Shown piece after piece: positions 1-3,981 of a DNA stretch of 64,000 nt; positions within the stretch are counted from its first letter, which is position 1, and every line of letters begins with the position of its first letter. This DNA is from Actinomycetota bacterium (GTDB lineage: Bacteria > Actinomycetota > Thermoleophilia > Gaiellales > Gaiellaceae). The DNA lies in contig JACDEU010000003.1 in the NCBI GenBank assembly GCA_013816245.1, positions 1 through 64,000 on the forward strand, given 5' to 3'. Under the pieces are notes generated by a model. It was not told where the DNA came from. It saw only the letters and a list, made by a program, of their open reading frames with translations, and did no database searches. Position numbers and translations under genes: made by a program.

Positions 1-474
1 GCAGGCGGCACGCTCGCGGATCGGTCGGGCGAGCTGCCGGCCGGGTTGGAGCCGCTGACGACGAAGCCGTTGCTCGCCGTCGAGAACGGCCCGAAGGGGA
101 TCGACCTCAAACTGGAGGCCGAGCTCGCCGAGATGTCCGAGGCGGACGCTGCGGACTTCCGCGAGGGGGCCTCGGCCCTCGAGGAAGTCGTGCGCCGGCT
201 GAGCGACGAACTGGGGCTGATCAGCTTCTTCACGGCCGGCGAGAAGGAGACGCGCGCGTGGTCGCTGCGGCGTGGACGGACTGCTCTCGAGGCTGCGGAG
301 ACGATCCACACCGACATCGCCCGCGGCTTCATCCGCGCCGAGGTGATCCGGTGGGAAGACCTCGTCGAGGCCGGCTCGCACGCGGAGGCCGCAAGACGCG
401 GCCTCCAGCGGCTCGAAGGCAAGACGTACGTCGTCGAGGACGGCGACGTCTTGAACATTCGCTTCAACGTCTAG
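1..474 (+). CDS. ychF: Ribosome-associated ATPase YchF/OLA1, C-terminal part (5' end outside window)
   Basis: Last 157 codons of the conserved Obg-family ATPase YchF. The reading frame is open from base 1, so the G domain lies to the left. What remains is the helical region and the TGS domain: GEKETRAWSL, ARGFIRAEVIRW, VEAGS and the typical end VVEDGDVLNIRFNV are visible. Family knowledge: YchF binds ribosomes and hydrolyses ATP, with a role in stress and translation. The TAG stop lies in a CTAG that also ends the facing cysteine-rich micro-ORF on the other strand. Identity is secure; only the fragment can be judged. Confidence 0.95.
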   Translation, partial: AGGTLADRSGELPAGLEPLTTKPLLAVENGPKGIDLKLEAELAEMSEADAADFREGASALEEVVRRLSDELGLISFFTAGEKETRAWSLRRGRTALEAAETIHTDIARGFIRAEVIRWEDLVEAGSHAEAARRGLQRLEGKTYVVEDGDVLNIRFNV

Positions 475-521
475 CAGCAGCCTGCGGGACAGCAGTCCGG
501 CGGGCAATCGCACTCGGCCAT
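471..521 (-). CDS. Cysteine-rich micro-ORF, 16 aa (MAECDCPPDCCPAGCC)
   Basis: Not a recognised gene. ATG at 521 reads MAECDCPPDCCPAGCC and stops at 471-473. Six of 16 residues are cysteine (positions 4, 6, 10, 11, 15, 16). It is preceded by a near-perfect ribosome-binding site, AAAGGAGG, four to five bases before ATG. It is divergent from arsR, and the shared 50-bp spacer contains the palindrome proposed as the ArsR operator, so the two may be co-regulated. Its stop overlaps the ychF stop in CTAG, a junction type repeated through the window. Inference: a tiny thiol peptide that could bind arsenic or metal. It is not an obvious leader peptide, because the next gene leftward (ychF) is on the other strand. 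Too short to be tested by composition. Confidence 0.6.
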   Translation of the reverse strand: MAECDCPPDCCPAGCC

Positions 522-531
522 CGTTCCTCCT

Positions 532-576
532 TTCATCGATGCCTGTCGATATTATATATTGACGGTTGTCGATGAA
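532..576. promoter_or_regulatory. Candidate ArsR operator and divergent promoter
   Basis: The arsR/micro-ORF spacer has two nested inverted repeats: outer TTCATCGA (532-539) with TCGATGAA (569-576), and an inner imperfect pair GTCGATAT / ATATTGAC around 545-562. The AT-rich core TATTATATATT stands out from the GC-rich surroundings and offers several -10 boxes just before arsR. ArsR-family repressors usually bind such dyads over their own promoter. Assignment is by position and symmetry only. Confidence 0.5.
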
Positions 577-898
577 GTCAATCGCCGTCCTTCCCACCAT
601 CTGCTGCAGCCCCCAGACCGAGCCGCTCACCGTGCCGGAGCGCGACGAGCTCGCGGCGCGCTTCAAGGCGCTCGCCGATCCGACGCGGGTGGCGATCATC
701 AACTCCCTCTCCGCCGCGGACGAGGTCTGTGTCTGCAACCTCACCGAGACGTTCGAGCTCTCGCAGCCGACAATTTCCCACCACCTGAAAGTCCTTCGCG
801 AGGCCGGGCTCGTCGAGTCGTCGCGGCGCGGCACCTGGGCGTACTACCGGTTGGTGCCAGACGCCATCGCCGCCCTCCGTGGCGCTCTCGGCCCTTGA
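572..898 (+). CDS. arsR: ArsR/SmtB-family metalloregulator
   Basis: 108-aa winged-helix repressor. Residues about 26-95 hold the ArsR fold: ALADPTRVAII, then the recognition helix LSQPTISHHLKVLREAGL and the wing SRRGTWAYYRL. Cys53 and Cys55 in EVCVCNL match the classical alpha-3 arsenite site of ArsR (ELCVCDL type). Two further cysteines (11, 12) near the N-terminus could complete a metal site. I prefer ATG 572; TTG 566 two codons upstream is also possible. It overlaps arsC by four bases (TTGA), so they form one operon. Expected role: arsenite-responsive repressor of arsRC and possibly of the divergent micro-ORF. Confidence 0.85.
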   Translation: MKSIAVLPTICCSPQTEPLTVPERDELAARFKALADPTRVAIINSLSAADEVCVCNLTETFELSQPTISHHLKVLREAGLVESSRRGTWAYYRLVPDAIAALRGALGP

Positions 899-1251
899 AC
901 GTCCTCTTCGTCTGCCGGCAGAACGCCGGGCGCTCACAGATCGCGCAGGCGCTCTACACGCAGCGGGGGGGAAACGGCCGCTCTGCCGGAACGACTCCCG
1001 CTGACCACGTCCATCCGGAAGTCGCCGCGGTGATGCCCGAGCTGGCGGGCCGGGTGCCGAAGAAGCTCGAGACGGCCGACGCCGAGCGGGCGGACCTCGT
1101 CGTCACGATGGGCTGCGGCGACACGTGTCCGGTGCTCCCCGGTAAGCGGTACGTCGATTGGGATCTCCCTGACCCGGCGGGTCGGGATCGCGAAGCGGTT
1201 CGAGAGATCCGGGACGAGATCGAGCGCCGCGTCGCCGACCTGCCGCTCTAG
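895..1251 (+). CDS. arsC: Arsenate reductase, LMW-phosphatase type (ArsC)
   Basis: 118 aa, start TTG 895 overlapping the arsR stop. The P-loop CRQNAGRS (Cys7, Arg13), the redox cysteines in TMGCGDTCP (Cys74, Cys78) and the general-acid DPDP-like segment LPDPA (Asp93) are all present, as in thioredoxin-coupled ArsC of the low-molecular-weight tyrosine phosphatase fold. It would reduce arsenate to arsenite. It is slightly shorter than the usual 130 aa, mainly between the P-loop and the SAGT motif. The TAG stop shares CTAG with the convergent transporter gene. No arsenite efflux pump gene is adjacent; the neighbouring DMT exporter is on the other strand. Confidence 0.85.
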   Translation: MNVLFVCRQNAGRSQIAQALYTQRGGNGRSAGTTPADHVHPEVAAVMPELAGRVPKKLETADAERADLVVTMGCGDTCPVLPGKRYVDWDLPDPAGRDREAVREIRDEIERRVADLPL

Positions 1252-2075
1252 CCGGCAGAGATCAGCGCGACGCCGGCGAGGGTCAGCACGATGCCTGCCT
1301 CTTGCGAGCGCGCGACGCGCTCTCTCAAGACGAAGCGCGCGAGGATCACCGTCACGATCGGATAGAGCGAGGCCAGGACCGACGTGATGCTGACCAGACC
1401 GCTCGTCGAAGCGGCTGCGAACAGCAGATTGCCGAGCATGTCGCCGATTCCGATCAGCGCGAGCAATGGGACCTGGAGCGGTTGGACCCCGAGTGACGGA
1501 CGGCGAATCGCGACCGTCGCGAGGATCACGGACGTGGACGTCATCCGGAAGATGAGCGAGGCCCACCAGAAGTCCGCCTCGCCGGCGGCGTGCATCGGCG
1601 GGAAGTACCCGCCGAAGCCGACCGCAGCGAGCAGGGCCAAGCCGACGCCGGCGGCGACCTTACCCCCGCGTCCAGGTTCCCGCGAGGCCAGAAAGACGCC
1701 TCCGAGTGCAGCTGCGATCCCCAGCCATTGCCAGGTCGAGGGTCTGTCCCCCGTCGCGATTCCGAACGCAACAGGGACTACCGCCGAGATGCCCGCGATC
1801 GGCGCCACGATGCTCATGGCGCCAATCGCCATGCCGCGGTAATACGCGTACAGCCCGAGAGTGCCGGAGATCGCGGCCGGGACCGCAAAGAGCGCAGCGG
1901 AATCGGCCGGCCCTTTGCCTCGAATCGCGACGATGAGCGCGATCCCGGCGAGCCCACCGACCTGTACGTAGAACAGGACGCGCAGCGCCCCGAGCGTCCG
2001 GCCCTTGAGCGGCCCGAAGAAGTCGGCGAATCCCCACGTCAGGCTTGCGCCCAGCGCCAGTCCGATCGACTTCAT
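1248..2075 (-). CDS. EamA/DMT-superfamily transporter
   Basis: 275-aa integral membrane protein with about ten hydrophobic helices in two five-helix halves, the EamA (DMT) layout. It starts MKSIGLALGASLTWGFADFF, and the second half carries the repeated LASLYPIVTVILARFVLRER segment typical of this family. Substrate cannot be told. The ATG is probably leaderless: TAGCGT lies six bases upstream, and the YhaM-like gene ends only nine bases before. Convergent with arsC over a shared CTAG. A link to arsenic export is possible but not supported by sequence. Confidence 0.8.
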   Translation of the reverse strand: MKSIGLALGASLTWGFADFFGPLKGRTLGALRVLFYVQVGGLAGIALIVAIRGKGPADSAALFAVPAAISGTLGLYAYYRGMAIGAMSIVAPIAGISAVVPVAFGIATGDRPSTWQWLGIAAALGGVFLASREPGRGGKVAAGVGLALLAAVGFGGYFPPMHAAGEADFWWASLIFRMTSTSVILATVAIRRPSLGVQPLQVPLLALIGIGDMLGNLLFAAASTSGLVSITSVLASLYPIVTVILARFVLRERVARSQEAGIVLTLAGVALISAG

Positions 2076-2961: not shown

Positions 2962-3981
2962 ATGGCCGTGGTGAAGCCGTTCAGGGCGGAGCGTTACGAC
3001 GAGGGAAGCGCGGGCCCGCTCGAGCAGCTCGTGGCCCCTCCGTATGACGTCATCTCGCCCGAAGAACGTTTGGCGTTCCTCGCCCGTAGCCCGTACAACG
3101 TCGTCCATCTGACCCTTCCGGACACCGAAGAGGAGGCCGGCGAAGCGATCGAGGAATGGCGGCAGCGCGGCGTCCTTGCCCGAGACGCGGAGCCGGGCTA
3201 CTGGTTCCTCTCACAGGACTACGTCGGCCCCGACGGCGTCGCCCGCACCCGCTTCGGCCTCGTGGCGTCGCTCCGGGCCGAGCCGTACGAGAACCGCGTC
3301 GTGCTCCCGCACGAGCGCACGCACAGCGGGCCGAAGGAAGGACGTTTGCGGTTGCTGCGTGCGACGCAGACGCAGCTCGAGCCGATCTTCCTCCTCTACG
3401 AAGGCGACCCGCTCGGGCAGCCGGCGCGGGAGCCCGACCTGCAAAGCGGCGGCGACAAGCTCTGGCGTATCAGCGAAGCACCGAGCTTCGAGAGCACCGA
3501 GCTGTTGATCGCAGACGGACATCACCGCTACGAGACGGCGCTCGCCTACGCCGAGGAAGGCGGGTCGCCGTATCTCACGGTCGTGCTCGTGCCGACGCGG
3601 CAGGAAGGGCTCACGATCTTTCCGACCCATCGCGTTGCCGAGCATGTCAACGGTGCGGGCGGAGCGCCGATCCACGAGCCCGGAGAGGAACTTCCGGGCC
3701 CTATCCTCTACCGCGGCGGCAGGTACGAGCTCCTCGCCGGCGACGGCCTCGACGTCGACATCGTCGGGCAGTTTGCGCCGCAGGGCGTGACGTACACATC
3801 GCAGCGAAAGGATGCGGTCGCAACCGTCGACCGCGGCGAGGCGGAAGCCGCCTTCCTGCTTCGGCCGACGCGCATCGAGGACGTATGGGAGATCGCACGA
3901 CGCGGCGACACGATGCCGCAGAAGAGCACCTACTTCTTTCCGAAGCTGACGTCGGGCCTCCTCTTCCACCCGCTTGACTGA
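2962..3981 (+). CDS. DUF1015 family protein
   Basis: 339 aa. Opens MAVVKPFRAERYDEG, as DUF1015 proteins do, followed by VAPPYDVIS and NVVHLTLP. The motif ADGHHRYETALAY (about residue 185) recalls the ParB/sulfiredoxin-like GHHR signature of this superfamily. PHERTHSGPKEGRL is also conserved. Biochemical role is not established for this family. I chose ATG 2962 over ATG 2944 because it matches the family N-terminus and has TAGGGT eight bases upstream. First gene of an operon: it overlaps the phosphatase gene by eight bases. Confidence 0.85.
   Translation: MAVVKPFRAERYDEGSAGPLEQLVAPPYDVISPEERLAFLARSPYNVVHLTLPDTEEEAGEAIEEWRQRGVLARDAEPGYWFLSQDYVGPDGVARTRFGLVASLRAEPYENRVVLPHERTHSGPKEGRLRLLRATQTQLEPIFLLYEGDPLGQPAREPDLQSGGDKLWRISEAPSFESTELLIADGHHRYETALAYAEEGGSPYLTVVLVPTRQEGLTIFPTHRVAEHVNGAGGAPIHEPGEELPGPILYRGGRYELLAGDGLDVDIVGQFAPQGVTYTSQRKDAVATVDRGEAEAAFLLRPTRIEDVWEIARRGDTMPQKSTYFFPKLTSGLLFHPLD

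Follow-up and report, generated by a model that had tools for sequence, protein, structure and literature searches.

We describe a 16-codon open reading frame, with the product MAECDCPPDCCPAGCC, that lies divergent to an arsR gene and that, judged by its sequence and by that of its relatives, is very likely a genuine gene. The reading that we favor, and that we consider probable, is that this micro-ORF is the gene for an arsenic-induced, As(III)-binding thiol micropeptide acting as a ribosomal chelator. The computed properties that bear on this reading are the conservation of the micro-ORF, the constraint on its Cys residues, its Shine-Dalgarno sequence, an operator-like repeat, its association with ars operons, and its near-exclusion, in one family, with other arsenic genes. 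By the window we mean the whole stretch of 64,000 nucleotides that was analysed, and the features of its first part are the following.

1..474, plus strand: 3′ end of ychF (Pfam YchF-GTPase_C), convergent with the micro-ORF, with CTAG in common.
471..521, minus strand: the micro-ORF, MAECDCPPDCCPAGCC-stop, 16 aa with 6 Cys, conserved in 37 genomes.
526..533, minus strand: Shine-Dalgarno sequence AAAGGAGG of the micro-ORF, read from the sequence and conserved across loci.
535..550: inverted repeat O2, ATCGATGCCTGTCGAT, between the -10 region and the Shine-Dalgarno sequence of the micro-ORF; putative ArsR operator for the divergent gene.
551..556, minus strand: candidate -10 (TATAAT) of the micro-ORF promoter, identified by eye.
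558..573: inverted repeat O1, ATTGACGGTTGTCGAT, spanning the start of arsR; putative operator of that gene.
572..898, plus strand: arsR metalloregulator with N-terminal Cys11-Cys12 and Cys53-x-Cys55 (Pfam HTH_5, NCBIfam HTH_metalloreg).
576-581: candidate -35 (TTGACT) of the micro-ORF promoter, 19 nt from the -10, identified by eye.
895..1251, plus strand: arsC-like gene for an arsenate reductase of the LMW phosphatase type (Pfam LMWPc), its start overlapping the arsR stop.

The micro-ORF reads ATG GCC GAG TGC ... TGC TGC TAG, and more than a third of its residues are Cys. The original prediction gave it a near-perfect Shine-Dalgarno sequence; we find a perfect one (AAAGGAGG), 4 bases ahead of the ATG. 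The predicted divergence from arsR is confirmed, with the arsR ATG at 572 on the plus strand and the micro-ORF on the minus strand, and so is the predicted stop within a CTAG common to ychF: in the CTAG at 471-474, the TAG of ychF occupies 472-474 on the plus strand and that of the micro-ORF 473-471 on the minus strand. A second in-frame ATG at 536, upstream of the start (MKGGTMAECD...), comes without a Shine-Dalgarno sequence of its own. No other ORF in the 64 kb window combines a GGAGG with a length of at most 30 aa and at least 30% Cys, and 60 Markov-simulated sequences of 64 kb contain zero such ORFs. Loci of the window's family totalling 250 kb contain no strong-SD Cys-rich micro-ORFs other than those divergent to arsR, with the exception of one, MTPVSECDCGGACC, found after arsM in genome G032 by a slightly different scan. 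A pattern search for paralogues elsewhere in the genus returned only arsR-linked copies and matches without the Cys pattern.

To assess conservation we used 103 genomes of the window's GTDB family, mostly MAGs and many of them incomplete, from which arsR orthologues were fetched. A divergent micro-ORF with a Shine-Dalgarno sequence is found at the same place in 37 of the 48 genomes with a close arsR orthologue (the window and 36 relatives). The original prediction had named as its refutation test the conservation of the ORF and its ribosome-binding site in relatives that keep the arsR context, and in these 37 genomes the ORF passed it. The 37 peptides (as examples, MAGCCDCPPDCCPDGCC, MSCCDDCCGGGPCC, MKKDDCCGSDCCGDDCC, MSCCDCDCDCCSGCC, and MARCECGCGCDCDCSGGCCC) are 13-24 aa long with 5-9 Cys each. 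Their composition is 41% Cys, 17% Gly, 16% Asp, and 0.5% His, and 33 of them end in Cys-Cys-stop.

The signal is that of a coding sequence. Cys makes up 41% of the coding frame, 0% of the other sense frames, and 0.4-4.9% of the antisense frames. In close pairs, 14 of the 95 aligned Cys-Cys codons carry a silent TGC/TGT difference, and Cys is opposite another residue at only 4 positions. The differences between close pairs fall 25/30/55 on codon positions 1/2/3, so that the third position has about twice as many as the first or the second. Across the family, Cys is kept while the flanking residues turn over.

The gene order in the family is ychF, micro-ORF, arsR, often arsC, then EamA and an HD-domain protein, with ychF convergent on the micro-ORF in most loci. 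Because the ORF persists where ychF is not a neighbor, it goes with arsR and not with ychF. At least ten family loci have no arsC behind arsR, so the micro-ORF is the only evident partner of arsR there. The EamA-type transporter (1248-2075, minus strand, in the window) adjoins arsR/arsC by synteny across the family, and its role in arsenic handling is putative. In two loci (L142 and L124) there are two copies of arsR that face each other, the second lying on the other strand and followed by arsC, and in L142 also by an aquaporin-like gene. A tree of ArsR, with a midpoint root that serves for drawing only, has carriers of the peptide on either side of the root and requires about five changes to account for their distribution; this pattern suggests that the peptide is old and has been lost several times. 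One genus (g10) accounts for 5 of the 11 arsR carriers without the peptide. Farther away, 30 ArsR loci from another family of the class and 80 from other Actinobacteria have no Cys-rich micro-ORF with a good Shine-Dalgarno sequence.

The regulator is of the arsenic type. An N-terminal CC plus a CxC is present in the ArsR of 36 of the 37 micro-ORF genomes, resembling the site of CgArsR with its Cys15, Cys16, and Cys55 (PMC11868830). The micro-ORF had been predicted to diverge from arsR across a putative ArsR operator, and there are indeed operator-like repeats at motif level: O1 has the form ATTGA-N6-TCGAT, and O2, just upstream of the Shine-Dalgarno sequence, has the form ATCGA-N6-TCGAT. Using a rule on both pattern and position, O2, at motif level an ArsR-like operator at the promoter, is found in 27 of the 37 micro-ORF loci (ten are without it under this rule) and in 0 of 9 arsR loci without a recognised divergent gene. 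It is also found in two genomes in which another gene occupies the micro-ORF site, an ArsM-like gene in G006 (L008/L199) and ArsI/CadI in G016 (L017/L200). Among 399 genomes of the class, the combination of Shine-Dalgarno sequence and O2 has 15 matches, every one at an arsR micro-ORF locus, and the reversed-pattern control has 0. We rejected MDEERAATCCSGAEAHACC in L017 as a separate peptide gene, as it is the tail of the ArsI/CadI protein; the G016 product ends in CCSGAEAHACC.

A scan of the window for consensus sigma-70 promoters, with its spacing limited to 16-18 nt, reported no promoter, and a terminator scan of the window reported no terminator. In L112, L113, L114, L117, L119, L136, L007, L009, and L022, strong G+C hairpins, terminator-like and without a T run, either separate the stop of the micro-ORF from that of the convergent ychF or stand directly behind the micro-ORF. 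The NCBIfam matches of arsC are to arsenate reductases only, all below cut-off. Its TTG start overlaps the arsR stop (TTGA, 895-898), which suggests translational coupling.

The peptide is not restricted to one family and one site, an idea that we had to reject. A search for the pattern CC..CC-stop led to two more peptides in arsenic loci, whose neighboring genes we named from translation and tblastn, not by family search. One, MQLDCCDECGGDDCC in G085, comes directly after arsC-aquaporin in the same family next to a different type of arsR. The other, MSTGCCDDECCEDGQDCC, belongs to G425, a genome of a different family within the phylum, where the genes run arsR, aquaporin, peptide, FAD oxidoreductase, arsC. 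Moreover, five Arthrobacter/Paenarthrobacter plasmids have a peptide between trxB and the FAD oxidoreductase of an ars operon, either MDTGCCTDTGCCDEDDLDCC or its kin MDTGCCTDTGCCDEDDPDCC, MTNGCCGDSGCCDDDQDCC, MTNGCCGDSGCCGEDCC, and a 12-residue form. The plasmid peptides are unannotated in all five records, according to the PLSDB gene table, which is incomplete. The Arthrobacter plasmid operons also hold an aquaporin and in some cases genes of the bile-acid-symporter type that may be ACR3-like, so that on these plasmids the peptide cannot be regarded as a mere replacement for export. Plasmid and window peptides are alike in kind, and they are too short to tell homology from separate origin. 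We did not see the peptide in the ars loci that we sampled on plasmids of Streptomyces, Rhodococcus, Dietzia, Rathayibacter, Clavibacter, Mycolicibacterium, and Sinorhizobium. A tblastn search with a 20-aa peptide had no matches and missed even its own source plasmid, queries this short being uninformative. In Nonomuraea gerenzanensis L345, at about 3660-3762 on the minus strand, there is a 34-aa Cys-rich ORF, MELCCTPEQLATCCAPEAKPACCDAAATEDACGC, which lies near an FAD oxidoreductase on the other strand and is itself followed by a sigma-factor-like gene.

What other arsenic genes do the carriers have? ArsM or ACR3 is found in 2 of the 37 micro-ORF carriers versus 45 of the 66 other genomes of the family, counts that ignore kinship and are confounded by lineage and by MAG completeness. 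ArsB-like matches (PF02040, weak, 43-84 bits) never coincide with the peptide in the family, and a pump-type match is present in 9 of the 11 genomes that have the arsR orthologue and lack the peptide. This near-exclusion of the peptide with pumps and ArsM is striking, and it is seen in one family only. As for other thiols, the match of the window genome to the MshC model is CysRS, which passes the cut-off of the CysRS model, so mycothiol is probably absent. Taken together, the type of ArsR, the operator-like repeats, the ArsM and ArsI genes that take the micro-ORF's place, and the recurrence in other ars operons support the arsenic link that the original prediction proposed.

In the mechanism that we propose, ArsR would repress the micro-ORF via the micro-ORF's own operator, and would release it once As(III) appears in the cell, whether by entry from outside or as a product of ArsC. 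Once translated, the peptide would tie up As(III) with its Cys-Cys and Cys-x-Cys motifs as three-coordinate As-S complexes, and six Cys could hold two As. It would be a micro-metallothionein, or an encoded phytochelatin, in cells mostly without ACR3/ArsB pumps and ArsM. We infer the expression of the peptide, its control by ArsR, As(III) as its ligand, and sequestration or protection as its effect. A 16-residue peptide may be short-lived, and no defined fold is to be expected of it.

The trxB on the plasmids suggests the main rival to this chelator, which we judge rather unlikely: a thiol redox partner that either passes electrons to arsenate reductase, as a minimal stand-in for thioredoxin or mycothiol, or takes As(III) over from ArsC and delivers it to the next enzyme. 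Its position between trxB and the FAD oxidoreductase of an arsC operon on five plasmids would fit such a partner, as would the apparent lack of mycothiol in the window genome and an arsC next door in many loci. However, the window-type loci that have arsR and the micro-ORF with no arsC alongside number at least ten, no CxxC redox motif is kept across the members, and 5-9 Cys exceed the need of a redox pair.

Runs of Cys codons after a strong Shine-Dalgarno sequence are also typical of leader peptides, and the micro-ORF could be a regulatory one, whose translation through Cys codons controls a transcript by tRNA-Cys attenuation or by interference with ychF transcription. Several loci have G+C-rich hairpins behind the stop, and a same-strand gene follows in G019, G425, and the Arthrobacter plasmids. 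But a Cys attenuation leader should have a regulated gene downstream on its strand, and the window and most of its relatives have the convergent ychF there instead, an arrangement that disfavors a leader peptide. In G085 the peptide comes after the aquaporin gene, not ahead of the operon, and peptides in widely differing contexts have retained both their Cys content and the Cys-Cys end. We give this explanation a low probability; the original prediction had called a leader role unlikely as well, which holds for the window lineage.

It is quite improbable that the target of the peptide is a different soft metal or metalloid (Sb, Cu, Hg, Cd, or Zn) and that the arsenic genes are mere neighbors. 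Thiolate peptides bind many soft metals, and arsenic-type ArsRs can also respond to Sb(III), but the partners are all of the arsenic type: an ArsR with CC/CxC, ArsC, ArsM, ArsI/CadI, and the aquaporin and FAD oxidoreductase of ars operons. Finally, a chance ORF in a low-complexity GCAGCA stretch adjoining arsR, as its mere 16 codons and a region rich in CAG/GCA might suggest, can be dismissed, since frame, Shine-Dalgarno sequence, and composition are conserved, Cys is specific to one frame, changes are silent, the operator-SD pattern is specific, and the peptide recurs in other ars operons.

Beyond the favored reading of the window's micro-ORF, we tentatively propose, at somewhat less than even chances, a class of actinobacterial ars components: ribosomal thiol micropeptides of ~12-24 residues, on chromosomes and plasmids, that would serve as stoichiometric traps for As(III) and that in one family would be the main output of ArsR, replacing efflux and methylation. 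We found no description of a thiol micropeptide of ars operons in open-licence papers. ORFs of this size are passed over by gene callers, and the annotated records of the Arthrobacter plasmids omit the peptide inside their ars operons. If the peptides bind arsenite, they would count among the smallest metallothionein-like products known to be encoded by a gene, and would offer both an alternative to arsenic export by pumps and a chemical scaffold for arsenic capture. With the micro-ORF one could also test the minimum size at which a gene product still works as a regulated resistance factor.

How does the locus compare with known systems? It resembles actinobacterial ars operons of the CgArsR type in having an ArsR with an N-terminal CC and a further Cys, and an adjoining ArsC. 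In the CgArsR-type operons that we sampled, ArsR comes with ACR3, ArsC, aquaporin, TrxB, or FAD oxidoreductase, no micropeptide is annotated, and none is described in the open-licence papers searched. Bacterial metallothioneins of the SmtA type are about 55 residues long. They bind Zn/Cd, with a Cys9His cluster in the Pseudomonas member, whereas the micropeptides have 13-24 aa, almost no His (0.5%, with 5-9 Cys), and an arsenic-type ArsR. A Pfam search at E<=10 gave no match for six members that are 20-24 aa long, one of them the window peptide read from its upstream start, at a sensitivity that is low for short queries, and a PDB search with the peptide gave none either, short queries being uninformative. 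By size, and as far as testable by sequence, the peptide is not a member of the bacterial metallothionein family (SmtA/BmtA). The arrangement is another matter: in smtA-smtB and nmtA-AzuR, a cyanobacterial metallothionein is repressed by a regulator of the SmtB/ArsR family (PMC8790569). Our locus shares with smtA/smtB a small Cys-rich product, a repressor of the ArsR/SmtB type, and inverted-repeat operators, here putative, near the promoter.

In the loose sense of a short and very Cys-rich peptide with CxC and CC, the 37 members, with 41% Cys, have the makeup of metallothioneins. The copper metallothionein of Neurospora crassa is dominated by Cys, with Gly and Ser. This 26-residue protein was once considered among the shortest metallothioneins (PMC4755600). 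The window peptide is likewise tiny and Cys-dominated, and we claim no homology; it has ten residues fewer than the fungal, copper-binding protein and is linked to arsR. Phytochelatins, (gamma-Glu-Cys)n-Gly, are short thiol peptides that bind As(III), and the micropeptide, for which we infer such binding, resembles them in being a short thiol peptide that contains an acidic residue besides Cys and Gly. But phytochelatins are made enzymatically with gamma bonds, whereas the window peptide is encoded and would be made by the ribosome.
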